Assembly (NCBI GenBank): GCA_016946835.1
Contig: JACVTC010000295.1
Span: forward strand, 1 to 32,500
Length of the DNA stretch: 32,500 bases
Direction: 5' to 3'
Source of the DNA: Neocallimastix lanati (nom. inval.)
Taxonomy: Eukaryota > Neocallimastigomycota > Neocallimastigomycetes > Neocallimastigales > Neocallimastigaceae
Positions 1,164 through 30,072 of this stretch are shown piece by piece. Made by a program: the position numbers and the translations under genes. The notes under the pieces are model-generated. The model saw only the letters and a program-made list of their open reading frames with translations, made no database searches and was not told where the DNA came from. How positions within the stretch are numbered: position 1 is the stretch's first letter; each line of letters opens with the position of its first letter.

Positions 1164-1407
1164 TGTTTTTTTTTATATCTTTTTTTATTTTTCTTTGTGC
1201 TAGTTATAAGGCACTTTATTATATAAAGTATCAGACTTTGGCTAACTTCGCCATTTAAATTTTTTTTATTTTTTTTATTACTAATACTTTATTTGTTTAA
1301 TAATTCCTGTAAAAGAATCTTAATTTACTTTGAAAATATTGTGTTTTTAGTTAATTTTTATTAGTTAATAAAAATATTATTGAATACTTTTAAAATTTTT
1401 TTTATTC

Positions 1408-1566
1408 CGTACATAGATTATCGGTTAAGTTTATCCTACATAGTAATTGGGCTAGTAGGCTCTGAACTGCTATATTTTATATTGAATATAGTAATCGTGG
1501 CACACGCGTGGCATGACACCATTACGTAAGCTGCACGTCAGACAGTGTGTACTATCAGATTGTACG
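1408..1566 (+). ncRNA. Conserved leader RNA domain, element A copy
   Basis: The closing stem is CGTACA (1408-1413) / TGTACG (1561-1566), extended by TAG/CTA. A conserved block around TCGGTTAAGTTTATC follows. Hairpin P2 is CCTAC/GTAGG (1435-1439/1455-1459). The block GGCTCTGAACTG is at 1458-1469. Hairpin P3 is CTATATT/AATATAG (1470-1476/1485-1491). Hairpin P4 is CGTGgCA/TGCACG (1507-1513/1532-1537), with loop TGACACCATTACGTAAGC. The same order of stems and blocks recurs in C and E with different stem bases, which is compensatory change. It may act in packaging, dimerisation or translation of the element RNA; the sequence does not say which. Confidence 0.65.
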
Positions 1567-1740
1567 ACAATAAAGATTATTTTTTGTGTTTAATAATTAT
1601 AATTAATTAATAATTTTATTAGCTATAACAATACAATATTTATCGTTTAAAAAGAAAAATTTTTGAAAGGTGAAAATAATAAATAAAACTTTGCTTCTAA
1701 ATTTATTACTACAAATATACTAAATTACAAAATTCAAGTG

Positions 1741-2202: not shown

Positions 2203-3114
2203 ATGTCCAAGGAAACAACTTTGAGCTTTAAAGAATTGAAAAAAGAATTAAGAGATATTGTGAAACTTAGCAAGGACAATTTAGATATTAAGTCCTGGGC
2301 TACTGAATTAAAACTTTGGATCAAGATACAAGGTATTACAGATCCAGAAACAATATTTAATGCTTGTTTACTTACCAGCTCTGGTGAAGTACAACGCATT
2401 ATTGAAGATTTGGGAGAAGATAGTGATGATGAAAGTGATGATTCATCAGATGAAGAAGAAGGTGATGATGAAGAAGAAAATGTTGATGATGATATTAAAT
2501 TTCCTTCTCTTGGAAAAATTATTTCAAGTCTTGAAAATTTTTACGGTATTAAAGAAGACCAAAATTTACTTCTTAAAGAACTTCGTGCAATGCGAATTAA
2601 AAGAAACGAAAAGATTAAAGACTTTAATGTAAGATATAGAACTTTGTACACTAAACTTGATAAAAAGAGAAGAAAGCGCATTGGTGTACTAGATTATATT
2701 GATTCAATTCAAAATAATTATGAAGCCTGGAAGAAATTATCCCTTAAAGATGATATAAGTATGGAGAAAGCTTTCAAAATTGCCGAGAAAGTAGATAGAC
2801 TTTCTGTAAGGAACAATAATATTAATATCTATAATGTTAATAATTCCCAGCATAATCAAAATAATCAAAACAGTACTACTTCAAGACTTTATCCTAAAAG
2901 AAGAAACGAAACTTTCCAAACAAGTCAAACAAATAATAAATTGAAACCTCAAGTTATTGTAGAAGAATCAACCCAGAAAATGAGAAATTTATCTGTTAAA
3001 ACTTGCTTCTTCTGTAAGGAAGAAGGTCATTACTCATACTATTGCCCTCAATTAAATAAGATTATGGAAAAATATAAAAAAGAAATATATTCCAAAAAGT
3101 CTTTAAACTTCTAA
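2203..3114 (+). CDS. gag: Gag polyprotein of element A
   Basis: This 303-residue protein is the structural capsid/nucleocapsid precursor that packages element RNA in the cytoplasm. Residues 1-70 and about 100-205 look like the two halves of a Ty3-type capsid and align closely with Gag of E. Between them, at about 72-98, sits a run almost entirely of D, E and S. A CCHC zinc knuckle CFFCKEEGHYSYYC lies at about 267-280. The ATG follows the leader minisatellite in an A-rich context (AAAATG), and the homologous E protein starts similarly. The last codons, TTA AAC TTC TAA, contain the frameshift site into the protease frame. Identification as Gag is firm; cleavage sites are not resolved. Confidence 0.93.
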   Translation: MSKETTLSFKELKKELRDIVKLSKDNLDIKSWATELKLWIKIQGITDPETIFNACLLTSSGEVQRIIEDLGEDSDDESDDSSDEEEGDDEEENVDDDIKFPSLGKIISSLENFYGIKEDQNLLLKELRAMRIKRNEKIKDFNVRYRTLYTKLDKKRRKRIGVLDYIDSIQNNYEAWKKLSLKDDISMEKAFKIAEKVDRLSVRNNNINIYNVNNSQHNQNNQNSTTSRLYPKRRNETFQTSQTNNKLKPQVIVEESTQKMRNLSVKTCFFCKEEGHYSYYCPQLNKIMEKYKKEIYSKKSLNF

Positions 3115-4456: not shown

Positions 4457-7111
4457 ATGGAATTTATTGAGAGTGATGAATTTTTAAGTACCTTAAATAA
4501 AGATTATAAAGAACAAATTATTAAAATTCTCAAAGAAATGATTGACATAGTTGCCACTTCAACAGAAGAACTAACTCCTTCTAAACTTTCACCACATAAG
4601 ATCCGTTTAAAAGCAAATTCAAAGCCAGTAAAATTAAGAAGTTATAGGTTAACTAAATTAAAACCAGATATCTTAAAAGAAGAACTTACAAAACTTATTA
4701 AGAAAGGATTGATAGAACCATCCTGTTCAGAATGGTCATCTCCAGTAGTACTTATTCTAAAACACAATGGAAAGTGGCGCTTGTGCATTGACTACCGAAA
4801 AGTCAATGATATGACAGAAAAAGATTCTTATTCAGTTCCATATATAGATGAAATTTTTGATAGTCTCGGAGGAGCTAAAATATTTACAACTCTTGATTTA
4901 TTTTCTGGTTTTCACCAAATCTTAATGGATGAAGAAAGCGTTGAAGTAACCACTTTCACTACTAAGTTTGGAAATTATCAATTTAAGGTTATGCCTTTTG
5001 GACTTACTGGAGCTCCCTCAACCTTCCAAAGAGAAATGAATAAAATTTTATTCCCTTTTATTGGTGAATTTGTTTATGTATTTATTGATGATGTTTTGAT
5101 CTATTCAAAAAGTATCGAAGAACATTTAATTCATATTAAACAAGTATTAGAAGTATTTAAAGAAAACAAGTTAAAAATTAATATTGAAAAGTGCCATTTT
5201 CTTCAAACTGAAGTTGATGTATTAGGTCACAAACTTACTACTAAAGGATTAAGTCCTATGGAAAGTAAAATAACAGCTATTAAGAAGTGGGAAGCCCCTT
5301 CATCAATTCATGAATTAAGATCATTTCTAGGAGCAATAGGGTATTATCGTGACTTTATCCCTAAATATGCTCAAATTACCTCACCTTTATGTAAATTATT
5401 GAAAAAGAATACTAAATATGAATGGAATAAAGAACAACAAGAAAGCTTTGAACTCCTAAAAGAAAAATTAATCAATGCACCTATTCTAAAATTTCCGTCA
5501 TTTGACAAACCTTTTATCATTAGAACTGATGCTTCGTATAATGGAATTGGTGGAGTTCTTTTACAAAAAGAAGAAGAAACCGGTAAGGAGCATCCAATAC
5601 ACTTTATAAGTAGAAGTTTAAAGAAAGCTGAAAAGAATTATGGTATTACCGATTTGGAAGGAACCGCTTTGTTTTACTGTATGACTAAATTTAAATCTTA
5701 TATTGAAGGAAATCCACTACCTACAACTATTTACACAGATCATAAACCATTAGTTGGTTTATTTAAGAATAAAGAACCTTTGAATGCAAGGCAAACAAGA
5801 TGGTGTCTAACCGCTAGTATGCTTGGAATTAATATAAAATATGAATCAGGCAAAAAGAATGTGTTAGCTGGTGCTCTTTCAAGAATGAAAAGTAAGGAAG
5901 AGAGAAAGATATTATTAACAAAAATTACTAATGGAAATAATGAAGAATTATTATCTAAAGTTATAAAGGAATTTATTAATGAAAAGTTTACTGTTATTGA
6001 TGGTGAAGATTACTTTATCGACAATGGAAATTATAGAAAATTAATAACGGACGAAAATGAAAGGTTTAAATTAATTTTAGAAGCTCATAATATTGGCCAC
6101 GAAGGATATTACAAAACATATCAAAGACTTAAGAAAAACTTTTATTGGAATCATATGATTAAAGATATCAAAAGAATTGTTAGTAATTGTGAAAAATGCC
6201 AATTAAATCGTCCTCAACCATATCCAGAACCAACCGAAAACCATCCAACTAAAGTGGAAAGTCCCTTTGTGCATTTAGGATTAGATATTATAGGACCGTT
6301 ACCAAAAACAAGAAATAATAATCAATATATTATAGTAACTGTTGATTACTTTACCAAATGGGTTGAAGCCGAACCCACTGAAAACATAACTTCCTCTGAT
6401 ATAATTAAATTTTTAATAAATGTTTTTGCAAGACATGGTGTGCCTCAAGTTATTACCACCGATAATGGAGCCCAATTCACCTCTGACATGACAAAAATCT
6501 TTCTTGACCTTTATGATGTATATGTTAAATTTGTAGCTACTTACCACCCTGAATCAAATGGTCTTACTGAAAATCGAAACAAAGAAATTGGAAAATTACT
6601 TCGTTTATTAGGAAGGAAAAATCAAGATTGGGATGAAGTTTTACCTTCTGCTTTATGGGCACTTCGAACTACCAAAAATACAGCTACTGGACATTCTAGT
6701 TTTGAATTAGTATATGGAAGAGAAGACCAACAGCTTTATGATATAGCCATAAGAACAATTGAAAATGCAGGTAAATCATATGATGAAATTTTAATGGAAA
6801 AATTTGTTCGTCATTATCAATGGACTAGAGAAGCATGCGAAAATGTGAAGAATGCTAACAAGTATTGGGCAACAAGACGAGAAGAACAAATAAGTATGAA
6901 AAAAGGAAAAGAATTAAAGGCTGGTGATCTTGTTCTTGTTAGAAACTTTAGCCGCACTAAGCTAGAACCATATTACAATGGACCATTTAAAATTTTAAAA
7001 ATTCAATTCAACACGGCAACCCTAATCGATCAGAAGACTGGAAAGCAACTCGATAGGAATGTTCACTTTAAAAATTTAGTAAAGTTTAACTCCGCTTACA
7101 GAGAAGCTTGA
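4457..7111 (+). CDS. pol: Pol of element A: reverse transcriptase, RNase H, integrase
   Basis: This 884-residue protein copies the element RNA and integrates the DNA. RT palm motifs are LDLFSGFHQ (about 145) and FIDDVLIYSKS (about 209), with both catalytic aspartates kept. RNase H has RTDASYNG (about 355). Integrase has an HHCC zinc module (H near 543 to CEKC near 578) and a D,D,E core: LDIIG (about 609), TDNGAQF (about 668) and E in ESNGLTEN (about 704). A GPF/Y-type tail lies near 841, and there is no chromodomain. In E the protease and RT are one frame; here the protease stop at 4440 precedes this ATG by 14 nt and the frame is -1. The pol frame is open back to 4430, so either a second shift, reinitiation or a single-base lesion must be assumed. 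Confidence 0.92.
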   Translation: MEFIESDEFLSTLNKDYKEQIIKILKEMIDIVATSTEELTPSKLSPHKIRLKANSKPVKLRSYRLTKLKPDILKEELTKLIKKGLIEPSCSEWSSPVVLILKHNGKWRLCIDYRKVNDMTEKDSYSVPYIDEIFDSLGGAKIFTTLDLFSGFHQILMDEESVEVTTFTTKFGNYQFKVMPFGLTGAPSTFQREMNKILFPFIGEFVYVFIDDVLIYSKSIEEHLIHIKQVLEVFKENKLKINIEKCHFLQTEVDVLGHKLTTKGLSPMESKITAIKKWEAPSSIHELRSFLGAIGYYRDFIPKYAQITSPLCKLLKKNTKYEWNKEQQESFELLKEKLINAPILKFPSFDKPFIIRTDASYNGIGGVLLQKEEETGKEHPIHFISRSLKKAEKNYGITDLEGTALFYCMTKFKSYIEGNPLPTTIYTDHKPLVGLFKNKEPLNARQTRWCLTASMLGINIKYESGKKNVLAGALSRMKSKEERKILLTKITNGNNEELLSKVIKEFINEKFTVIDGEDYFIDNGNYRKLITDENERFKLILEAHNIGHEGYYKTYQRLKKNFYWNHMIKDIKRIVSNCEKCQLNRPQPYPEPTENHPTKVESPFVHLGLDIIGPLPKTRNNNQYIIVTVDYFTKWVEAEPTENITSSDIIKFLINVFARHGVPQVITTDNGAQFTSDMTKIFLDLYDVYVKFVATYHPESNGLTENRNKEIGKLLRLLGRKNQDWDEVLPSALWALRTTKNTATGHSSFELVYGREDQQLYDIAIRTIENAGKSYDEILMEKFVRHYQWTREACENVKNANKYWATRREEQISMKKGKELKAGDLVLVRNFSRTKLEPYYNGPFKILKIQFNTATLIDQKTGKQLDRNVHFKNLVKFNSAYREA

Positions 7112-7129: not shown

Positions 7130-7614
7130 TGATAAGAATGTACTAAATAATGCATTCTTAATTAAATCTACGATTTATTTCTAATACATTATGTGTACAT
7201 TATTATTTTTGTACTTTAATAAATTTTTAAATCCAAAGATCAAAAATTAAATCAAAAATTATATTAAACTTTATATTTTTATATTAAATCTTATATTAAT
7301 AGTAATATTTTTATATATTTAAAACTAATATTAGCAATATTAATAATAAATCTTATTTTTTTATATTTTTATATTAAAAATGAAAATTTGTATTAATAAT
7401 ATTTTTTATATATTGATAATTAAAAATTTATATATTATATTTTAACTTTTATTATAAAATTTTATATCGAAATGTTTTATTTTATATTGAAAAATATTTT
7501 ATTTTATTAAAAACCTTTATATTAGAATAGTATTTTTATTTATATTTGAATATTTTAACAGATTGTAATAAAAATTATAGCCAATTAAATAAATTCTTAT
7601 TAGTAATATTTTAG

Positions 7615-7648
<34 letters not shown>

Positions 7649-7951
7649 TGTTTTATTAATATTATAAATGTATTTTATTTATATTGTTATAATTAAATTT
7701 TATATAATTGATTATAAAAATCAATTTAAATTTAATAGTTTTTATAAAAAAAAAATAAATAAAATGTAATTTAGTGGCAAGAACAACTTTAATGCCTTGA
7801 AAAAAGTATAAATAGTTGTAAATTTTGCTACAAATTTTTAAAAATCATGAAATCAAATAAATTTAATAAAATAAATAAATAAAATAATAAATAAATAAAT
7901 AAAATTTGTGTTTCTTACTTTATTTTTATTTAATTCTCTAAAACCTTAACA
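7130..7951 (+). repeat. 3' LTR of element A
   Basis: It starts TGATAAGAATG right after CGGGGCATCT, a weak polypurine tract, and ends CCTTAACA. Length is 822 bp, with the TATA box at 7807-7814. The terminal type TGwTAAr...CCwTAACA is shared with F and E. The base after the LTR joins ATC, the start of the tRNA-unit flank. Confidence 0.88.
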
Positions 7952-9422: not shown

Positions 9423-9479
9423 AGACTTAGAGAATAACTTTATTTAATTTATAGTAATAATAAAAATTAAAAGATTTAA

Positions 9480-9870
9480 ATAAAAAAAAAATTAAAATAA
9501 AATAAAATAAAATAAAATAAAATAAATAGTTGAAATATGAATATAAAGTACAGATTGAATAAAATAAAATAAAATAAAATAAATAGTAGAAATATGAATA
9601 TAAAGTACAGATTGAATAAAATAAAATAAAATAAAATAAAATAAATAGTTGAAATATGAATATAAAGTATAGATTGAATAAAATAAAATAAAATAAAATA
9701 AATAGTTGAAATATGAATATAAAGTACAGATTGAATAAAATAAAATAAAATAAATATTAGAATATGAATATAAAGTACAAATAAAATAAATAGTTGAAAT
9801 ATGAATATAAAGTACAGATTAAATAAAATAAAATAAAATAAAATAAAATAAAATAAAATAAAATAAAATA
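9480..9870 (+). repeat. AAAAT-type minisatellite of unit 1
   Basis: About six units of roughly 60 bp alternate an (AAAAT)n run with a unique core, GAATATAAAGTACAGATTG and variants. The array ends in a pure (AAAAT)n run. Copy 2 has fewer units at about 13090-13410. Confidence 0.85.
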
Positions 9871-9917
9871 CATGAAATAAAATTATTATATTAATATATA
9901 TTGTAGTAATTATACAA

Positions 9918-10145
9918 AGTGCGTTAGAAGCAATAGCCTCTAACTTTTCTCATTCTTCGATAATAACACCACGTCCATTATTGTGAGTAAAGATTTCAGT
10001 ATTGGTGTTATCAACAAATTTTTATCAAATTTTTTCACTGAGGGGAGGTGAAAATCCATGCCACTCATTTCGGCGTCGACGCTTTCAGCAACGGTAGATT
10101 CAATAGATTTAACCAAATAATATTTTATCATCAATCTATTTTTTT
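9918..10145 (-). other. Conserved island with a short minus-strand frame, unknown
   Basis: This stretch has much higher GC than its surroundings and is repeated at 13466-13690. On the minus strand both copies read an open frame containing VAESVDAEMSGMDFHLPSV. Copy 1 gives 95 codons and copy 2 only 61. The ends differ through indels, and I do not recognise the peptide. It may be a relic exon or a noncoding island conserved simply because the duplication is recent. I assign no function. Confidence 0.25.
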
Positions 10146-10859
10146 TTTTTTGACAGGGAAGAAAATATACTTCCATAACTTTATTAATTTTATTATAAAA
10201 AAAAATACATGTTGGTGAAAAGTACATTTTGAAATTAAAAAATAAGAAAAAAAAAAATTTAAAAAATAAAAAATAAAAAATAAAAAATAAAAAATAAAAA
10301 ATAAAAAAATACTATGTATTTCGGCAAGTTATACTATACGGTAATTTTTTCCCTTCCTAACAAATAAAAAAAAAAAAAATAAATAAATAATAATAAAACC
10401 TAGAAGTAACATCTTTAAAAAAATAGATAGTGTGGTGTGGTGTCATCCACTAAACTCTCCCCCTCGGGATTCATCATTTATTGAATTACTAAGGCGAGAT
10501 TCACCCTTCGTAGAAATAGATTAAGATCCTGTATTATCTTATATATATACAATACTTTATAATATAAAATTTTTTATTATTTATTTATAATTTATATATA
10601 CATATATAATAAAAAAAAAATATTGTTCTTTACAATTAATTTAATTTTATATTTAAAAAATTTTTTTATAATAAAAACAAATAAAAATAATTATTAAAAA
10701 GAAATAATAAAAAAAAAAAAAGAACTAAAATAAAATAAAATAAAAAAGTAATAAAAAAAAAAATAAAATAAAATTTTAAAATTATAATATATATATAGAT
10801 ATGAATTATAATAAATGAATTAAAAAAAAAAAAAATTGAACAAAATGAAAAATAAAAAT

Positions 10860-10951
10860 GCTCATGGCGGGGGTCGAACCCTCGATCTTCGCGTTGCATA
10901 AGAGGTACTCTCTTATAAGTACGACGCCTTAAACCTCTAGGCTACACGAGC
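10860..10951 (-). tRNA. tRNA-Ile(UAU): tRNA-Ile(UAU) with 19-nt intron, copy 1
   Basis: The reverse strand gives acceptor GCTCGTG/CATGAGC, D arm GCC...GGC, anticodon loop CTTATA with TAT at positions 34-36, and T loop TTCGACC. A 19-nt intron (10895-10913) follows position 37, as in eukaryotic nuclear tRNAs; yeast tRNA-Ile(UAU) also has an intron there. Relative to copy 2, the anticodon stem reads TCGTA against CGCGA (one A-C mismatch) and the T stem reads GAGGG against CCCGC (one A-G mismatch), so this copy may be weakened. A run of five T follows the 3' end as a Pol III terminator. It reads AUA codons. Confidence 0.9.
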
Positions 10952-12791: not shown

Positions 12792-14150
12792 ATCTAAAAA
12801 TTATAATCAAATAATAAATCAATACTTATGTAAATTTTATCAATCTAACCTAATCCAAAACTAGTCCGATGTCTAATTTCTGCTAAAGAGAGCCGCAGAT
12901 CACACTAAGGTAAGAATGGCATTTTTTAGAATCATCACCAGAAATGATTTGGTTTTTAAACAAGAGCCATCCCATTCCTTGTTTTATAATTTGAATTAAT
13001 AATGTCTGCCTCTCTTATTTTTTTTTTTTTTAGGCTTAGAGAATAACTTTATTTAATTTATAGTAATAATAAAAATTAAAAGATTTAAATAAAAAAAAAA
13101 TTAAAATAAAATAAAATAAAATAAAATAAAATAAATAGTTGAAATATGAATATAAAGTACAGATTGAATAAAATAAAATAAAATAAAATAAATAGTTGAA
13201 ATATGAATATAAAGTATAGATTGAATAAAATAAAATAAAATAAAATAAATAGTTGAAATATGAATATAAAGTACAGATTGAATAAAATAAAATAAAATAA
13301 ATATTAGAATATGAATATAAAGTACAAATAAAATAAATAGTTGAAATATGAATATAAAGTACAGATTAAATAAAATAAAATAAAATAAAATAAAATAAAA
13401 TAAAATAAAATAAAATACATGAAATAAAATTATTATATTAATATATATTGTAGTAATTATACAAAGTGCGTTAGAAGCAATAGCCTCTAACTTTTCTCAT
13501 TCTTCGAATGATAACACCACGTTCATTATTGCGAGTAATAATTTCAGTATTGGTGTTATCAACAAATTTTTATCAAATTTTTTCACTGAGGGGAGGTGAA
13601 AATCCATGCCACTCATTTCGGCGTCGACGCTTTCAGCAACGGTAGATTCAATAGATTTAACCAAATAATATTTTATCATCAATCTATTTTTTTTTTTTTT
13701 TGACAGGGAAGAAAATATACTTCCAAAACTATATTAATTTTATTATAAAAATAAAAAAAAAATACATGTAGGTGAAAAGTACATTTTGAAATTAAAAATA
13801 AAAATTAAAAGTTAAAAAATAAAAAATAAAAATAAAAAACTCAAAAAATACTATGTATTTCGGCAAATTGTACTATGCGGGAATTTTTCCCTTCCTAACA
13901 AATAAAAAAAAAAAAAAATAAATAAATAATAATAAAACCTAGAAGTAACATCTTTAAAAAAATAGATAGTGTACGTGGTGTAGTGTCATCCACTAAAATC
14001 TCCCCCCGGGATTCATCATTTATTGAACTACTAAGGAGAGATTCACCCTTCGTAGAAATAGATTAAGATCCTGTATTATCTTATATATATACAATACTTT
14101 ATAATATTAAATTTTTTATCATTTATTTATAATTTATATATACATATATA

Positions 14151-14192
<42 letters not shown>

Positions 14193-14434
14193 AAAATAAA
14201 ATAAAATAGAAAAATAATAAAAAAAAAAATAAAATAAAATTTTAAAATTATAACATATATATAGATATGAATTATAATAAATGAATTAAAAAAAAAAAAA
14301 AAAATTAAACAAAATGAAAAATAAAAATGCTCATGGCGGGGGTCGAACCCGCGATCTTCGCGTTGCATAAGAGGTACTCTCTTATAAGCACGACGCCTTA
14401 AACCTCTAGGCTACACGAGCTGCTTGAAAAATCT
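12792..14434. repeat. Tandem tRNA-Ile unit, copy 2
   Basis: This is the second copy of the unit at 9185-10965, in the same order and orientation, with a shorter AAAAT minisatellite and a long A run at 14152-14187. The right end is the same 14-nt flank of the tRNA, and element E begins at the next base. The boundary bases ATCTAAAAATTATAAT match the corresponding start of copy 1. Confidence 0.88.
14329..14420 (-). tRNA. tRNA-Ile(UAU): tRNA-Ile(UAU) with 19-nt intron, copy 2
   Basis: The fold is complete: acceptor GCTCGTG/CATGAGC (one G-T pair), anticodon stem TCGTG/CGCGA, T stem GCGGG/CCCGC around loop TTCGACC. The anticodon is TAT and the intron lies at 14364-14382. A CTCTTAT segment in the intron can pair with the anticodon region, as usual for tRNA splicing substrates. 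Box B is GGTTCGACCCC. Five T follow the 3' end. This copy has no stem mismatches and is the better candidate for a working gene. Confidence 0.93.
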
Positions 14435-14436
14435 TG

Positions 14437-15225
14437 TGTAAGAAATTAATATAAATTTTTATAATTTATTTCTATTTCTTATTAATTAATAATTATTTCA
14501 TAATTATTATTCTTTAAAAAAATTTATTTCATTTAAAAACAATTATACCAATTAATGTATTAATTGTTATATGAAAAAATGTATTTAATATAACTTCTGT
14601 ATTATTTCATAGAAAAAATGTATTTAATAAAATTTCTGCATTATTTTATCCTTCTCTTTTTTATCCTTTTTCTTTTTAATTCTTTTAGTTATTAAAATCA
14701 GTTATTAAAGTTTTTCCGATTAATTATAATTGGTTTTATTTAATAACACGATGATCAATAAGTATAGATTATTGATCAAAAATCTTTCCAGTTTTTTCTT
14801 CTAATCTTTTTCTGGAAAGAATCATTGTTAAGATTAGAAAAATACATTTATTTTTGTAAAAATATAAATAGCTGTTGATTTTCGTCTTTAGAAAATCAAG
14901 AGTTATTATTTTAAGAAAAATATAATAACAATAAAAGACATTAATATTTCAATTAATATAAAATAGTTATTTTAAAATTTGTCAAAAAAAAATAATAAAA
15001 TATTTAATAATAAAATAGATTAATAAAGTTCTTTTGATAAAAACATATTTTATTTCTCTTTCATTTAAGGTCTATTATATTTTCTTATAATAAGCTCTAA
15101 TTTTAAAGATAAGTATTAAATTCTTATTTTTATTTTAATTTTTATTTTAATTTTTATTTAATCTTAATAGTTTAGTTAATATTAATTATAAATAATAATC
15201 TCTATAATTTATAGAAATTATTACA
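14437..15225 (+). repeat. 5' LTR of element C
   Basis: It has TGTAAG...TTACA ends and TATA at 14863-14870. Three perfect 9-bp inverted repeats sit near the TATA box: TGATCAATA/TATTGATCA (14752-14760/14770-14778), TCTTTCCAG/CTGGAAAGA (14783-14791/14812-14820) and TTGATTTTC/GAAAATCAA (14875-14883/14891-14899). The last lies just after TATA and could fold at the 5' end of the transcript. Confidence 0.92.
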
Positions 15226-15646
15226 ATAATAACTCTTCTAGATAATTAGTTAATTGTATTATGATATTGTAGTACAAAAGTAAAAAAAAAAAAAATTTAT
15301 TTTATCCGATCAAATAAATAAATAGATAATATTAGAGAAAAAAAAAAAAAAAAAAAAAAATTATTTTTTCCAATCAGATAAATAAATAATATAATAAAAA
15401 AAAAAAAAAAAATTTTAATAGTAAATTATAATTATATAAATTAAATTGTATATATTAATAGATAGTAAAATTATATTATTAAATAAAATAATTATAACAA
15501 TAACAATAATAATAAATACGTAAATTATATACTATAAATTATACTAACAATTAAATTTTTTATATTTAATAATATTAATTTATAATAAAGGATTCTAGAA
15601 GTTATTTCCAAAAATAAACAATATAATGAGAATTAGTACGAACTTT

Positions 15647-15846
15647 AGAAGCAGGAGTAGCCTGAGTCTTGTAACTGAGTGATTTCCGGATTAAGTTTAC
15701 CCTTCACGACAAGCTGTGCGGGAGGCTCTGAACTGGTCTGTTTTAATGGTAAACAGATTGCAATCGTGGTGCGCGCGGCAACAAGACACCATTAATAGGT
15801 AAGCTGGTCGTATAGCGCATACTATCACTCAAACTCAGGGGCTTCT
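15647..15846 (+). ncRNA. Conserved leader RNA domain, element C copy
   Basis: The closing stem has three parts: AGAAGC/GCTTCT (15647-15652/15841-15846), CCTGAGT/ACTCAGG (15661-15667/15833-15839) and TGAGTGAT/ATCACTCA (15676-15683/15824-15831). An 8-nt bulge sits on the 5' side of the inner pair. Then come TTCCGGATTAAGTTTAC, hairpin P2 CCC..CAC/GTG.GGG (15700-15722), GGCTCTGAACTG (15724-15735), hairpin P3 CTGTTT/AAACAG (15738-15743/15751-15756), and P4 GTGCGC/GCGCAT (15769-15774/15815-15820) enclosing GACACCATTAATAGGTAAGC. Stem sequences differ from A and E while pairing is kept. Confidence 0.75.
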
Positions 15847-15962
15847 GGAAAATTGGTCGGAAATGCTCATTTTTGTTAAAATATTGGAAGTGTTCTTCTA
15901 GACTCCGAAGTTATAAATTTCTATTATTAATATAAATAATTTATATTTTACAATTATACACA

Positions 15963-16048: not shown

Positions 16049-18286
16049 ATGAATTCAATCAGTATGGAAGCTACTAAGGAAGCTGAAGCGTCAAAATTAA
16101 TTTCTGCAATTACCGAATTTATTCCCACATTTTTTTCACCTAACGGTGTGTTGGCCCGCAATGAAGACAACACAAAGCTTAATCTAAACGAACTAACTGA
16201 ACAGTGTGAATTGTTCTTTGATGAACATGCCAATTCGTTCCCAAATGACAACTTTAGAAACGCTTTCGTTATCAGCAAACTTTATGGACCAGCTAAAAAA
16301 TGGGGATTATCTCTCAAGGCTGATGGAACACTTAATTCTCTCACCTATGAGGAATTTAAGAGGTTATTGTTAGAAAATTTTGGAGATACAAAGGAACAAA
16401 GGTTTGTTTTAATTGAAGAACTTTTGAACCTTAAACAGCTTCACCTCGGAAAGGCAGCTTTCTTTACTATTGAATTCAGAAGATTAGCGTCAAGAATTGG
16501 TTGGAACGACGATGTTTTTATTGACCTTATCCGGAGAGGCCTTCTTGAGGAGGTTCGTCTGGAGTTCGATAAAATTGAAAGACCAAAGACCCTTTTTGAA
16601 GCAACAAATTCAATCATCAGCATCGATAAAAAATGTTTCATTAACAACCTAGCCAAAACAAATAAGTCAACCAACAAGTCGCAAAAAAGAAAAAGAGATG
16701 AGCATCCAAAACAGGAATTCAAGAACAACAAAGTACACAAGAAATTCAGAAAAAATCAAAACAAAGAAAGCATCCTTTCGGCTAACTATACACCAAACAC
16801 TTCAAATTCAATGACCACAACATTTATATTAAATAATAATGGAAAGAAAATGAAAATAAACGTCCTTATTGATTCTGGTTCTGCAAGAAGTTACATCTGT
16901 AGAGACTTTGTAAACGCCAACAGAATTCAATTATCTACCTTGTCTTCACCATTGAACATTCAGTTACCGAACAACAAAAGTATGAATATAAGACAAGTAA
17001 CGAAGAAATTAGGCCTTGCCTTCATGGACCACAAGGAAAGCTATGAATTCTACGTAGCTACCTTACAACTTCAGGGAATATCAGCCATCCTTGGAAGAAA
17101 TTGGTTGAGTATTCATATGCCATACGTAGATTTCAAAAATAATAAGATTTACTTTTTAGAGAACCACTGCGGAAATCACTACCCTTCAGCAAAAGGGAAT
17201 AAATTCATTTTTCACTCTAAAGATGTTACTGCTGCAATTTTGCCAAACAACGAAAACAACAATGTATCAAAAGATAAAACAGAAACATACTCAATATCTG
17301 GTGACGAACTTTTTGATATAGATATTTGCGCCGCTTTAGTAAATGAAACTGATAAAGATGAAATTATCAACATATACTATCAAGATTTGAAAATTGTATT
17401 TGAAAAGAAAGAGGCAGACAAATTGCCTCCACATCGTGAATATGATATATCAATTGACCTAGTCCCTGGTGGTCAATTATATTATGGACCTGTGTACTCT
17501 CTTACGATTGTCGAAATGGAAGCTCTTAAAAACTATTTAAAAGAAAATTTAGATAAGGGGTTTATAAGGAAGTCAAAATCACCTGCTGGTGCCCCTGTCC
17601 TGTTTGTAAAAAAACAAGATGGAAGCTTACGACTCTGCGTTGATTATAGGAAATTAAATTCTATTACAATTAGGAATAGCTACCCTATCCCAAGATTGGT
17701 TGACTTGATTGAATCGTTTAAGGGAGCAGTAATATTCACTCGTTTGGACCTTCGATCTGCGTATAACCTTGTCCGCGTTAAAGAAGGTCATGAATATTTA
17801 ACTGCTTTTAGAACACCTTTAGGCCAATTTGAATATCTAGTAATGCCCTTTGGCTTAAGAAATGCCCCCTCGGTGTTTCAAAGATTCATCCAGGATGTTT
17901 TATCTGATGCAATTGGCATATTTGTTCAAGTATACTTGGATGATATAATAATTTATTCAAAAAGTTTGGACGAACATATTCAACATGTTCGTAAAATATT
18001 GTCGCTTCTAATTAAAAATGGTCTTTACGTGAAATTGGAAAAATGTGATTTTCATGTTAAAGAAACTATTTTTTTAGGGTTTGTGGTGTCTGTAAATGGT
18101 CTTTCAATGGACAAGAATAAGGTTAAAGCTGTTATCGACTGGCCTATCCCAAAAAATATTAAAGAACTCCAAGGGTTTCTAGGACTTTGTAACTTCTATA
18201 GGAAGTTTATAAATAATTTTGCCGAGATCATTGAACCTCTCCGTCGGCTTTTGAAGAAGAACTCTTCCTTCATTTGGGATGTTAGG
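16049..18286 (+). CDS. gag-pol: Gag-Pol of element C, N-terminal part (Gag, protease, RT)
   Basis: These 746 codons run without a stop up to the insertion point of D; the apparent stop at 18334 lies in the D LTR. Residues 1 to about 195 are a Ty3-type capsid. In place of a CCHC knuckle there is a basic stretch at about 210-235 beginning KRKRDEHPKQEF. The protease has LIDSGSARSY near 273. RT has LPPHREYD, LDLRSAYN (about 566) and YLDDIIIYSKS (about 630), all catalytic aspartates present. Gag, protease and RT are one continuous frame, with no frameshift or readthrough, unlike A, D and E. The rest is at 24639-26396 in the same phase. Confidence 0.92.
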
Positions 18287-18895
18287 TGTAACGAATATTG
18301 GAATATCCGTGTTTTAAAGAGTGTAACACAATAGGTAAGCACTTTTTGATTAATAAGTAATTTGGTTTTTTAAAATATAGTTTTATTAATTAAGAAATTT
18401 AAAAATATTAATTATAAAGATTAATTATTGTAATATTTCGAATTACTTATTAATTAATTCAATAATTAATAAAAACACAATTTTTAAAAAATATTTTTTT
18501 TTTGGCTGCGAAATTCACTCCTATTTATAGTTTTTCAAAATTTAAATCCATAAAAATTTAAAACCATAAAATCATTAAAAAGTTTCATAAAAATTGATTA
18601 TTTTCGGTTAAAAAGAATCTAAAAGAAATAATGATAAAAGATAAATTAAAATAGAATTTCTATCTGATTTGTTTCTATTAATTTCTAAGAATTTCTTTTG
18701 TTAATTTTTTACAGAAATTTATACAGAAACAAATACAGAAACAAATACAGAAATGAAGTATAAAAATTCTTTAAAATTTAAATGATATAAAATTTTAGTA
18801 AAGGTGTGAGTCGAACCCTAGTGGTTCAGGCTGAGGTCATAGTGACTAACCACTATGCCAGCATTCTAATTTCTAGTTTTTTAAGATTCGTTACA
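18287..18895 (-). repeat. 3' LTR of element D
   Basis: It has perfect 10-bp inverted ends TGTAACGAAT/ATTCGTTACA. The TATA box on the minus strand is at 18522-18529. The bases beside it at 18896-18907, read on the minus strand as AGAGGAGGACCA, are the polypurine tract and confirm orientation. A tRNA-like block is at 18800-18872. Confidence 0.92.
18800..18872 (-). ncRNA. tRNA-like Pol III promoter inside the D LTR
   Basis: On the minus strand, box A TGGCATAGTGG (18850-18860) and box B GGTTCGACTCA (18807-18817) are 32 nt apart, as in tRNAs and tRNA-derived SINEs. A TTTT run follows. The acceptor and T stems do not pair, so this is not a working tRNA. It recurs in the other LTR (boxes at 24588-24598 and 24545-24555), where box A carries the single LTR difference. 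Confidence 0.55.
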
Positions 18896-19116
18896 TGGTC
18901 CTCCTCTAGGATTCGGATGCCAGACGAATCTTTTACTTTAAATCTAAACTATTTCTAATTCTAACTTTTATAATAATAAACTATAACTAAAATACTTATA
19001 AGAGTGATAATTTAATTAATACATTGGATAATAAAAATTACATGAATTTTAAGTTTTAAAAATAAAGTATAAAAATAAAACTATCTAGAATAAATGTTTT
19101 TGAATAATATAAAATA

Positions 19117-23505: not shown

Positions 23506-23737
23506 TTATTATAATCATTAATTTTGATTGAATAATAAATATACAATATAATTAATTATTAGAAGAAGTAAATATTTAATTTCAATATAAATAATTTTAA
23601 TTTCAAGGATGGCTATATGGATTATTGAAAATATTAATAATTTTAATATATAGTAAAATTCAAGGGTTCCGATTGAATTTATAAATTCATGCATGAATTT
23701 TGGTAGAAAAATTTATAGTCTTGGTAAGTGGTTTCAA

Positions 23738-23985
23738 AAATAGTAGAAAATGGGATTCCTTAACGGGGTTCCAAAAAGAGTAATAGAGAATGGGATTACT
23801 TAACGGGGTTCCAAAAAGAGTAGTAGAGAATGGGATTCCTTAACGGGGTTCCAAAAAAGAATAGTAGTAAATGGGATTCCTTAACGGGGTTCCAAAAATA
23901 GTAGTAGAAAATGGGATTCCTTAACGGGGTTCCAAAAATAGTAGTAGAAAATGGGATTCCTTAACGGGGTTCCAAAAAGAGTAAA
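23738..23985 (-). repeat. Leader minisatellite of D, about 40-bp period
   Basis: Six units contain GGGATTCCTTAACGGGGTTC (plus-strand sense), starting at 23752, 23792, 23832, 23873, 23913 and 23953. They differ at few positions. The array lies about 40 bp inside the 5' LTR of D, where a retroelement leader carries its cis signals. Confidence 0.9.
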
Positions 23986-24024
23986 AGTGCAAAGGTATTG
24001 TGCTTAGTTTAGTGGTGTTTTTAT

Positions 24025-24633
24025 TGTAACGAATATTGGAATATCCGTGTTTTAAAGAGTGTAACACAATAGGTAAGCACTTTTTGATTAATAAGTAATT
24101 TGGTTTTTTAAAATATAGTTTTATTAATTAAGAAATTTAAAAATATTAATTATAAAGATTAATTATTGTAATATTTCGAATTACTTATTAATTAATTCAA
24201 TAATTAATAAAAACACAATTTTTAAAAAATATTTTTTTTTTGGCTGCGAAATTCACTCCTATTTATAGTTTTTCAAAATTTAAATCCATAAAAATTTAAA
24301 ACCATAAAATCATTAAAAAGTTTCATAAAAATTGATTATTTTCGGTTAAAAAGAATCTAAAAGAAATAATGATAAAAGATAAATTAAAATAGAATTTCTA
24401 TCTGATTTGTTTCTATTAATTTCTAAGAATTTCTTTTGTTAATTTTTTACAGAAATTTATACAGAAACAAATACAGAAACAAATACAGAAATGAAGTATA
24501 AAAATTCTTTAAAATTTAAATGATATAAAATTTTAGTAAAGGTGTGAGTCGAACCCTAGTGGTTCAGGCTGAGGTCATAGTGACTAACTACTATGCCAGC
24601 ATTCTAATTTCTAGTTTTTTAAGATTCGTTACA
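24025..24633 (-). repeat. 5' LTR of element D
   Basis: This 609-bp copy of 18287-18895 has TATA at 24260-24267 on the minus strand. The only difference I noticed is C/T at 18851/24589. On the minus strand the next bases after the LTR read ATAAAAACACC, so no TGG-type primer site is evident. Confidence 0.93.
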
Positions 24634-24638
24634 TTAGG

Positions 24639-26406: not shown

Positions 26407-27195
26407 TGTAAGAAATTGATATAAATTTTTATAATTTATTTCTATTTCTTATTAATTAATAATTATTTCATAATTATTATTCTTTAAAAAAATTTATTTC
26501 ATTTAAAAACAATTATACCAATTAATGTATTAATTGTTATATGAAAAAATGTATTTAATATAACTTCTGTATTATTTCATAGAAAAAATGTATTTAATAA
26601 AATTTCTGCATTATTTTATCCTTCTCTTTTTTATCCTTTTTCTTTTTAATTCTTTTAGTTATTAAAATCAGTTATTAAAGTTTTTCCGATTAATTATAAT
26701 TGGTTTTATTTAATAACACGATGATCAATAAGTATAGATTATTGATCAAAAATCTTTCCAGTTTTTTCTTCTAATCTTTTTCTGGAAAGAATCATTGTTA
26801 AGATTAGAAAAATACATTTATTTTTGTAAAAATATAAATAGCTGTTGATTTTCGTCTTTAGAAAATCAAGAGTTATTATTTTAAGAAAAATATAATAACA
26901 ATAAAAGACATTAATATTTCAATTAATATAAAATAGTTATTTTAAAATTTGTCAAAAAAAAATAATAAAATATTTAATAATAAAATAGATTAATAAAGTT
27001 CTTTTGATAAAAACATATTTTATTTCTCTTTCATTTAAGGTCTATTATATTTTCTTATAATAAGCTCTAATTTTAAAGATAAGTATTAAATTCTTATTTT
27101 TATTTTAATTTTTATTTTAATTTTTATTTAATCTTAATAGTTTAGTTAATATTAATTATAAATAATAATCTCTATAATTTATAGAAATTATTACA
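26407..27195 (+). repeat. 3' LTR of element C
   Basis: This 789-bp copy of 14437-15225 lies directly after AAGGAGGTGCAA, a plausible polypurine tract just past the pol stop. It is followed by target repeat TCTTG (27196-27200). Confidence 0.93.
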
Positions 27196-27198
27196 TCT

Positions 27199-28124
27199 TG
27201 TTAAGGAATGAATAAATAATGTTAATTTTATTATTTTTCATAAAAATAACTTAACCACTAAAATTAAATTATTTATTTCCTTACTTGGGGAACTTTCTTA
27301 TGTTCTATTACTGCCAAATTATTACTAATATTAAATTTATTATTATTAATATAAATTCTTTATTAATATCAATACTTTATTATTAAAATTAATACTATAT
27401 TATTAATATCAATATTATTATCAATATCTAGTTTTATTAATATGATTAATTCTATCAATATTTTATTATTAAAGAAAATTTTATTTTACAAATATTACTA
27501 ATACAGATTATTTATTATTAATAAAAATTAATATAATTAATAATGATTTAAAAATATTTTACTTAAATCCATGATCCTTGTCATTAAAATTAGTAATACT
27601 TCCTTCCAAAATACACCCTATTTATAATAAGATTAATAATAGATAATAATCTAAAATACTTTTATTTAAAAATAGTATAAAATTAAATAATACTCTATTA
27701 CTAATAGTTCTGTAAAAGTAATAAAATTATTTTTAAAATATATTATCACTACAATTAATAATAAATAGTTTAGAATTTAATAATATGTAATAATTATTTA
27801 TTATAATAGAATAGATTATGAATTTATAATTTAAATACAATTCAAACATGTAACTCTAAGATATTCTAAAGAAATGGCTTGACCATTTCTAACGATAAAA
27901 AAAAATATAAATAGATGAGAAAATTGTATTTTAGAAAAATAATCTGAAGAAAAAAAAATATAATCTTATTAAAGAAATTAATTTATTTTTAGTTTTTAAT
28001 TGAATAATTTTTATTAAATAAATAAATAAAATATTTTAAAAAAAAAAATATATTTTAATTTTTAATTTTTTTTATTTTAGTGTTTATTTCTATATTTATT
28101 ATTATTCTGTCCCGAACCTCAACA
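27199..28124 (+). repeat. 5' LTR of element E
   Basis: This 926-bp LTR has inverted ends TGTTAAGG...CCTCAACA and TATA at 27906-27913. The assignment rests on termini, the primer site 7 nt later and the match of its start to LTR F, because the 3' LTR is not in the window. Confidence 0.85.
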
Positions 28125-28279: not shown

Positions 28280-28337
28280 AAATAAAATTTATTGGAAACA
28301 TATAAAAAGGGATTTAGTACGGTTTAGAAGCATACCT

Positions 28338-28518
28338 AGTACTAAAATTCCAACAGTAGGTAGTTTCCGGATTAATTTATCTCAAGAATTGAAAGGTCAT
28401 TCTTGAGCTCTGGTCGTTCTGTTTATTTGAAAGCAGAAGCGTCTGGTTTGATTACTACATGACACCGTAATAGGCAAGCTGTAGTAATTCAAGCACTACA
28501 TACCTACTTTTTAGTACT
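28338..28518 (+). ncRNA. Conserved leader RNA domain, element E copy
   Basis: The closing stem is AGTACTAAAA/TTTTAGTACT (28338-28347/28509-28518) plus GTAGGTA/TACCTAC (28356-28362/28501-28507). An 8-nt bulge lies on the 5' side and one nt on the 3' side, the same bulge sizes as in C. Then come TTTCCGGATTAATTTATC, P2 CTCAAGAAT/ATTCTTGAG (28381-28389/28399-28407), GCTCTG, P3 TTCTGTTT against AAAgCAGAA (28417-28424/28430-28438) and P4 ATTACTACA/TGTAGTAAT (28451-28459/28480-28488), with loop TGACACCGTAATAGGCAAGC. It gives the clearest pairing of the three copies. GGAAATGCTC follows in both C and E. Confidence 0.78.
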
Positions 28519-28818
28519 GAATATGGAAAATTCCAGGAAATGCTCTTTTTATATGTATATTATTCAATAAAAATTCCATAAAATTTTTTTTTTGTTCTAA
28601 TAAATCATATTTTATTTTTTTTTAGTTGTTTACAAATAATATTTTTATTTTTAAATTTTAATTGAGTTATATCAAAGTCGTCTTACGATCAACTCAGAAA
28701 AAGTTTCCTACCACATTGCCAATTGATAATAACAAAAGCACACAACAACACCATTAATTCGAAGATTCCATTACATTAAAATTTTTTTTTGAAAGTAAAG
28801 AACAATACAATTATCAAG

Positions 28819-29121: not shown

Positions 29122-30072
29122 ATGAGTTCAGGATCTTCTCCATCAACTTCAAATCCTTCAGTTCCAATTCCAACTGTTATAAACAAAAATCACGCTATTA
29201 GCTTTAGAGAACTCAAGAAAGAATTAAAAGACATAGAAAAACTAAGCAAAGAACATCTCGATATTAGATCTTGGGCTTCAGATTTAAAATTTTGGATCAG
29301 ATATCAACATGTAGATGATCCAGAAACTATTTTTACGGCATGTATCTTAACTTCGACTGGTGAACCAAGAGAAGTAATTCAAAATATGGAATATGGCGAA
29401 AACTATAGTGATGACGATGACGATGATGATGATGACGATGATGACGATGATAGCGATGATGAAGAAGATAATCATTATCCAAGTCTTGATGAAATTATTA
29501 ATGAGTTAGAAACATTTTATGGAAAAAAAGAAGATCAAAACGTCTTGCTTAAGGAACTTCGCTCCTTAAAAATTAAAAAGTATGAAAAAGTTAAAGATTT
29601 TAACATTCGCTATCGATCACTCTATTTAAAACTCGATAAAAAGAGGAAAAGAAGAATTAGTGTATTGGATTATGCTGATTCTTTGAAAAATAATAAAGAA
29701 GCCTGGAAAAAGGTTTCACTCAAGGATGACATTTCTTTAAAGAAAGCATTTGCAATAGCTGAAAAAGTAGATAGATTGATGCCTACCTTTAACCAAGAAA
29801 TAAACGAAAATTTTAGAACAAATTTCAACAATTCTTATAAATCATCAAATTTTAATAACAACCAATCTAAAGGAAAAGTATTTAATGATTCAAAAATAAA
29901 GGAAAAAGATTCAACTGTTGATAACTTAACTAAAAGAATAAAAGGTTTAACTGTTAGTACCTGTTTCTTTTGTAGTGAAGAAGGTCATTTTCAAACCGAA
30001 TGTCCAAAACTTAATGCTATTATCAAAAAGAATCGTCAGGAATACTTCGAAAACAAACGTATAAATCACTAA
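29122..30072 (+). CDS. gag: Gag polyprotein of element E
   Basis: This 316-residue protein is the homologue of A Gag. Shared features are SFRELKKELKDIEKLS near the start, the LDIRSWASDLKFWIRYQ region, a D-rich run at about 95-118 (14 consecutive Asp), and a CCHC knuckle CFFCSEEGHFQTEC near 281-294. The frame is open back to 28936. I chose 29122 because similarity to A begins soon after it, the context is AAAATG, and the upstream 62 codons overlap the leader repeats and read as a hydrophobic low-complexity peptide. The stop is followed by the conserved pseudoknot. Confidence 0.92.
   Translation: MSSGSSPSTSNPSVPIPTVINKNHAISFRELKKELKDIEKLSKEHLDIRSWASDLKFWIRYQHVDDPETIFTACILTSTGEPREVIQNMEYGENYSDDDDDDDDDDDDDDSDDEEDNHYPSLDEIINELETFYGKKEDQNVLLKELRSLKIKKYEKVKDFNIRYRSLYLKLDKKRKRRISVLDYADSLKNNKEAWKKVSLKDDISLKKAFAIAEKVDRLMPTFNQEINENFRTNFNNSYKSSNFNNNQSKGKVFNDSKIKEKDSTVDNLTKRIKGLTVSTCFFCSEEGHFQTECPKLNAIIKKNRQEYFENKRINH

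Follow-up and report, generated by a model that had tools for sequence, protein, structure and literature searches.

The leaders of several Ty3/gypsy-type retrotransposons of what is most likely an anaerobic gut fungus share a structured RNA domain, a four-way junction within a closing stem, in which the stems change from one element family to another while pairing is maintained. Three of the host elements, denoted A, C, and E, lie in the window, that is, the entire 32.5-kb stretch of DNA analyzed, and two related families, F and G, were fetched from elsewhere in the genome (199 Mb, 762 contigs). The domain is common to elements with unrelated Gags and apparently different modes of priming, looks like a cassette that is exchangeable between element lineages, and is, judging by its sequence and location, a candidate packaging (Psi-like) element, an explanation to which we assign a probability of about 0.4.

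Host elements and anatomy of the domain

The Ty3/gypsy membership of the host elements was checked on A and C, via the domain order of A and, for C, LTRs with TG..CA ends together with a 5-bp target duplication, TCTTG (Table 1). Element C is interrupted downstream of its gag-protease-RT frame by a nested element, D, the repeats of which span 18287-18896 and 24025-24634. The LTRs of A lie at approximately 1-708 and 7229-7951, whereas the likeness of E to its other copies begins near 27194-27199, and the 5,000 bases beyond the window are N. Gag relatives that bear an organism name or code belong to Piromyces, Neocallimastix, and 'Orpsp', which we take to be Orpinomyces, and point to an anaerobic gut fungus as the most likely host. 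The element groups differ in the sequence that follows the LTR. In C, this stretch is complementary to a segment inside the LTR, and the equivalent in F is a 13-nt complement found at three loci (L027, L028, and L030), as expected for Tf1-like self-priming, so that both families are apparently self-primed, with a candidate site in each. In A and E, the common post-LTR sequence TGGTGGAGATATCGGGG has the form of a tRNA primer site; a search of tRNA genes for a fitting 3' end with one pattern gave 0 matches.

Table 1. Positions in the window of the RNA domain and of the elements that carry it
Feature	Positions	Strand	Basis
RNA domain of C, whole, including outer strands S1 and S2	about 15633..15872	+	blocks, folding, covariance model
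Core of the C domain: inner closing stem P1, four-way junction, arms Pa-P2, P3, P4	15676..15831	+	model R1, 175 bits at 15676-15832
RNA domain of E	about 28314..28548	+	R1 (built without E), 56.7 bits at 28357-28507
RNA domain of A, short closing stem, without S1 and S2	1407..1567	+	R1, 117.7 bits at 1411-1562
5' LTR of C	14437..15225	+	LTR comparison
3' LTR of C	26407..27195	+	LTR comparison
Gag-protease-RT of C, single frame	16049..18334	+	Pfam; protease is RVP_2
Gag of A, with CCHC knuckle	2203..3114	+	sequence
RT-RNaseH-integrase of A, Ty3/gypsy order	4457..7111	+	Pfam
Gag of E, with CCHC knuckle	29122..30072	+	Pfam and sequence
Candidate self-primer of C, inside LTR	14898..14909	+	perfect 12-nt complement of 15226-15237

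The surroundings of these elements hold some features of their own. The C LTR starts 16 bases from the 5' end of a minus-strand tRNA-like gene (window 14328-14437), a placement that brings to mind elements with integration sites adjacent to Pol III genes. The stretches at approximately 9427-10951 and 13036-14420 are alike, probably through local duplication, and each includes a tRNA-like gene that seemingly holds an insert near the anticodon. Tandem repeats of 40-41 bp are present in the leaders of A (1737-1968) and D (23696-24017).

The core of the domain comprises about 150 nt, and the whole, with the outer strands, about 235-240 nt in C and E, where the domain extends farther on both sides than the first-pass annotation had drawn it (Table 1). 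The closing stem, P1, is long in C, E, F, and G, and short in A, and encompasses three arms, Pa-P2, P3, and P4. The long P1 opens with a C-G pair in all 9 rows that have letters at this position and is interrupted in its 5' strand by a 5-8-nt bulge (by eye in F and G). The outermost strand, S1, reads UUAGUAC..UUAGAAG, and 3' of P1' lies strand S2, GAAAAU..GGAAAUGC, both compared by eye in C, E, F, and G; the AGUA of S1 and the GAA of S2 could, by eye, presumably make up the strands of a bulged-G (loop E) motif. Among the arms, Pa reads YCGGR/UCUGR, a bulged A occurs at one position of P2 in A, C, and F, and P4 consists of outer and inner stems with the tip GACACC..GGYAAGC, for which some rows have the variants GACGCC, GAAGCC, or GAAACC. 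The conserved words that are wholly or partly unpaired, namely, UUAA after Pa, GCUCUG, UGG before P4, GACACC..GGYAAGC, and ACUAY after P4, are located at the junction and the P4 tip. For A, C, and F, RNAalifold prefers an alternative helix, AGUUUA/UGAACU (UGGACU), over Pa, which E and G, by eye, are unable to form. AUG-led frames that start within the core are 3 to 73 codons long.

The conserved blocks that had been noticed in the leaders of A, C, and E are where the first-pass annotation placed them, and they align cleanly among 12 copies in an alignment made from sequence. The further claim that these leaders carry one order of parts holds in the core but not outside it, given that A has a short closing stem and lacks S1 and S2. 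The proposed P2 stem of C is better drawn in another register, CCUUC-A-CG/CG-GGAGG, which is that of F and A. Similarly, the closing stem has an asymmetric bulge in both C and E, although not of equal size as had been thought (8/1 in C and 7/0 in E). The window copy of A differs at two points from most of the A copies read, with CGGTTAAG for CGGATTAAG and ACGTAAGC for AGGTAAGC.

Covariation and the search for known relatives

The folding of single copies is weak evidence, informative for E (z of -3.6) but not for C (-0.8), A (-1.3), or F (0.0); the case for the structure rests on covariation. A covariance model, R1, built from A, C, and F only (alignment A2, 40 pairs), finds the unseen E (E-value 3.5e-12) and the unseen G (E-value 2.2e-10); its matches to four E rows score 44.6-60.7 bits and those to two G rows 48.0 and 49.5 bits, with E-values from 3.5e-09 to 3.6e-13. 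Within the window, the model gives 175 bits for C, 118 for A, and 57 for E, which is absent from the model, compared to 9.1 bits for the best match beyond these three domains when both window strands and the L091 locus are searched with filters off.

In the model-fitted alignment A3 (17 rows, 16 distinct, with row L060 fitting poorly at the 3' end), 92.8% of the 625 cells pair and 28 of the 40 pairs are changed on both sides, with a covariation score of 0.55; sliding the partners by 1-3 columns lowers this score to 0.14 or less, which makes chance unlikely. A3 is fitted to the structure, itself drawn mainly from C, but A1 and A2 are not, and structure-blind alignments agree: with MAFFT on sequence only, 6 sequences give 90.7% paired cells, two-sided changes at 19/40 pairs, and a score of 0.43 (0.14 or less when slid), and 12 sequences give 84.3%, 31/54, and 0.36 (0.11 or less), the count of 54 pairs taking in the outer closing stem. 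In these three counts, four of five measures exceed all 500 shuffles; the fifth, which concerns further pair types, fails to do so in each of them. When each family is represented by one sequence, pairing is seen in 185 of 196 cells and two-sided changes in 27 of 40 pairs, these being five families from one genome and hence few independent lineages; with arms mixed between families, 550 of 784 cells pair. Unaided, RNAalifold recovers P1, Pa, P2, P3, and the outer P4 stem from A3, and P1, P2, P3, and P4, with the alternative to Pa, from A2. Another compensatory change is seen in the first 80 letters of a further A-like copy (C23:579546), where P3 has gone from CUAUAUU/AAUAUAG to CUAUUUU/AAAAUAG. 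The third pair of the P4-tip stem is non-standard in 11 of the 16 rows of A3. G-U pairs are present, one of them invariant in 16/16 rows, and would become A.C on the opposite strand, which identifies the domain as RNA of the gag-sense strand. Thus, the covarying stems proposed in the first-pass annotation persist when more copies are aligned, and the covariance model it called for recovers families outside its training set. Chance or an alignment artifact was rejected as their source in view of the two-sided changes, the slid controls, and the sequence-only alignments.

Rfam 15 has no family on the domain at the gathering score, whether in the window, in the C domain, or at loci L028, L092, and L060, in keeping with the initial impression that it belongs to no known family. 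In the window, the only matches at this level are two tRNAs, both elsewhere than the domain; the C domain alone has a best E-value of 1.4, under gathering, and the sole gathering-level match at L028, L092, and L060 is a tRNA outside the domain. A known Rfam family as the identity of the domain was rejected on these grounds. Searches of viral contigs with two DNA patterns or three proteins, and of prokaryote genomes with one DNA pattern, yielded no relatives. No report of such a domain was found in the accessible portions of the open-access literature on retrotransposons, transposable elements, and noncoding RNA of anaerobic fungi, or of that on leader-RNA covariation, packaging and dimerization, IRESs, and ribozymes. 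Among surveys of fungal structured RNAs, one mentions transposable elements twice in the text available to us, in one case as features that are annotated and in the other as ones to be avoided (PMC8216456), and the available text of another has zero occurrences of the five words checked (PMC5640933).

The compact junction, the conserved unpaired nucleotides with no obvious partner, and the conservation across unrelated Gags might suggest a ribozyme or an element whose conditional cleavage would set mRNA apart from genome RNA. We regard this as very improbable because no self-cleaving ribozyme family of Rfam matches the domain at the gathering score and cleavage at this place would sever the LTR-side leader from gag-pol.

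Distribution and exchange between element lineages

In BLAST comparisons with the genome, the C leader recovers, among the best 40 of 68 rows, 26 full-length copies at 97-100% identity, 13 rows at 71-75%, and one partial row; the E leader, among the best 40 of 53, 31 rows at 92-100% and 9 at 73-76%; and the A leader, among the best 40 of 631, 40 rows at 98-100%. Families F (L027, L028, L030, and L094) and G (L092 and L093) are divergent rows from these comparisons that were read. A gapped pattern spanning the junction and the tip of P4 matches the genome at 410 places, and a second pattern, which covers C, F, and some A-like copies, at 68, with 0 matches for either in the reversed control. A gag row on the same strand lies 209-307 nt downstream of 57 of these 68 matches; this count used 144 of the 276 gag rows, so that the remaining 11 matches need not be solitary. 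Viewed from the gag side, the second pattern lies upstream of 23/29 C-type and 31/42 F-type rows, 3/28 rows of a distant E-like class (60-61%), and 0/21 of a distant C-like class (58-60%), as well as 0/15 E and 0/9 G rows although both these families carry the domain; given that the pattern misses all E and G copies, these counts are lower bounds from which absence cannot be demonstrated. G was read in short pieces, with its gag characterized by location and identity; among the matches listed, a gag row of 65% identity follows about 1 kb downstream of 6 of the 7 places at 73%. Copies of the E-type domain recur about 7.1 kb apart on contigs C391 (2169, 9266, 16364) and C223 (260774, 267872, 274972), a spacing that suggests tandem elements.

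In A, C, and E, the domain occupies part of the leader between the LTR and gag, and in A and E it follows the primer site; in F, it precedes gag. The interval between the domain and gag varies from 122 nt to about 1 kb. A location in the leader, downstream of the primer site, could suit a role in reverse transcription, be it primer placement or strand transfer; such a role is highly unlikely, considering that the domain is common to the apparently self-primed C and F and the tRNA-type A and E, and that its distance from the LTR is 407 nt in C, 189 nt in E, and 698 nt in A.

Diversity within families is lowest in the core, with pi of 0.0087 in C and 0.0125 in E, from nearly all full-length BLAST rows, and 0.0008 in A, from 30 loci chosen by identity to the domain, which biases this last value; the leader flanks and gags range from 0.0079 to 0.063. 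Between families, the domain does not follow gag. The gags of A and E are 50% identical (3e-95) and those of C and F 63% (2e-110), with C and D at 27% (1e-13), whereas the comparison of the A and C gags gives no significant similarity (0.42). The groups are set apart also by the zinc knuckle, a CCHC knuckle being present in the A and E gags and absent from the inspected parts of the C and F gags (251 and 252 aa, respectively), as well as by apparent priming. Yet, the A core is closest to that of C (identity 0.67, followed by F at 0.60, G at 0.57, and E at 0.52), while the E core is nearest to G (0.73). D is nearer to C in pol than A is, and no domain is detected in it by R1; similarly, a third A/E-type element, at locus L091, has a leader that is complete from the primer site to gag and no R1 match above 7.6 bits. 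Hence, a shared covarying RNA in the leaders of elements with dissimilar gags, as originally claimed, is borne out, and the suggestion that it moves between families gains support from the mismatch between the groupings by domain and by gag. From the identities among the five families, rather than from a tested tree, the domain looks like an exchangeable cassette.

The domain-free leader of the L091 element holds a different, G+C-richer stretch (L091:6380-6690; C218:38779-39089) that folds at -94.3 kcal/mol (z of -3.5; 1 of 100 shuffles as good) and has no Rfam family at the gathering score. By this prediction, the stretch is possibly a leader RNA of another kind.

Possible functions and known counterparts

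The explanation that we favor, packaging, accounts for the position, the sense strand, the low diversity, and the exchange, all of which fit a mark on the full-length RNA. The location characteristic of a Psi element, in the genomic RNA between the primer site and gag, is found in A, C, and E, the site in C being the candidate for self-priming. The domain would mark full-length element RNA as cargo and would be bound by Gag or a Gag-host complex; RNAs that share this mark would enter one particle, where template switching during reverse transcription could move the cassette between families. That elements relying on one particle may have a signal in common is not without precedent: in the accessible part of the source, BARE2 makes no Gag, yet is packaged and has kept conserved dimerization and packaging signals (PMC3735527). 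Against packaging stand the difference in CCHC knuckles between the C/F and A/E gags, the protein-related elements that are free of the domain (D and the third A/E-type element), and the incomplete presence of the second pattern upstream of C-type, F-type, and E-like gag rows, in counts that are lower bounds. As regards dimerization, no palindrome common to the P2, P3, and P4 loops of the five families is seen by eye.

Retroelement leader signals are expected to change with Gag, and a signal read by Gag should diverge with it, so that the constancy of the core favors a host partner. The domain might bind a putative host factor involved in the export or stability of the long unspliced transcript, or in the movement of ribosomes along the leader, in the manner of a constitutive transport element but at this position. 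The unpaired nucleotides are retained although the elements have unrelated Gags and seem to be primed differently, which is best explained by a constant host partner; D and the L091 element, related by protein but with no domain detected, speak against a host-factor role. With the constancy of the core across unrelated Gags as its main argument, a host-factor element is on the unlikely side, ranking close behind packaging. Constitutive transport elements are cis-acting RNAs for the handling of unspliced transcripts, and the well-known ones appear to differ from the domain in position and fold. A broader proposition, tentative as it is, would have a portable cassette that has passed between unrelated retrotransposon lineages of gut fungi and whose reader is not the Gag of each element but a host factor or a common packaging route; if so, elements with the cassette would form a community that has particles or host machinery in common, irrespective of their proteins.

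Internal initiation, which was among the functions first considered, would make the domain a place where ribosomes enter or land internally for the translation of gag. Between the domain and gag, with the domain-edge AUG left out, there are 0 AUGs in A (7.2 expected), 1 in E (4.7 expected), and 0 in C (1.2 expected, which is not significant); moreover, an AUG at the 3' edge, within GGAAAUGC, starts a short frame, which is 12 codons long in C (15863), 13 in E (28540), and 16 in F (L027, L028, and L030), and G carries, by eye, the same letters at this edge. However, AUGs are depleted upstream of the domain too, in A and E. The leaders have 2 AUGs in A against 17.2 in dinucleotide shuffles, 4 against 9.5 in E, and 4 against 10.9 in C, and the same holds for leaders that lack the domain, those of the L091 element (L091:5455-7251, 1.8 kb; 1 against 17.8) and of D (3 against 6.8). 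The antisense control, CAT, is itself reduced in E (14 against 20.6) and C (4 against 8.6), and a little so in A, whereas its number is close to that expected in the L091 element and D, such that the AUG argument is carried mainly by A and the L091 element. An AUG-free landing zone peculiar to the domain was rejected because domain-free leaders are depleted as well. In addition, the spacing between the domain and gag is variable, and F has 2-3 AUGs in this interval, where base composition predicts 1.4-1.5. Depletion that is independent of the domain argues against the need for an IRES, which we consider improbable; scanning to gag is the simplest reading of these leader sequences.

A candidate packaging element of this kind finds partial counterparts in several known systems. 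Like the 5' cis-acting regions of retroviral (Psi) leaders and of Ty1 and Ty3, as described in the parts of the sources available, it is structured sense RNA near the 5' end, the primer site, and the gag start (PMC5454406, PMC4974528); unlike these, it has a sequence-conserved core that is common to elements with unrelated Gags and apparently different priming, and its packaging role is our inference. This persistence of the leader RNA allows a direct question, namely, what reads the domain, and the mismatch between domain and gag is a traceable record of recombination between retrotransposon lineages. The domain is, moreover, a candidate RNA family in gut fungi, a group for which no earlier report of one was found in the accessible part of the open-access literature.

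The other counterparts, each drawn from the portion of the source at hand, illuminate separate aspects. A structured retroelement RNA is known as an IRES, but in the antisense mRNA of a mussel element (PMC10974842), and the AUG pattern of the fungal leaders does not call for an IRES. Retrozymes, ribozyme-bearing retroelements, are likewise folded RNAs that travel with mobile elements (PMC4918200), whereas the fungal domain matches no Rfam ribozyme at the gathering score. The self-primed Tf1 and Tj1 resemble C and F in the complementarity of the post-LTR stretch to an LTR segment, and the accessible text mentions no such leader domain in them (PMC4600332). A further parallel is BARE1 and BARE2, two elements with common packaging and dimerization signals, one of which uses the Gag of the other (PMC3735527); there, BARE2 is a deletion form that stands beside BARE1, whereas the fungal elements that share the domain have unrelated Gags and are proposed to share particles.
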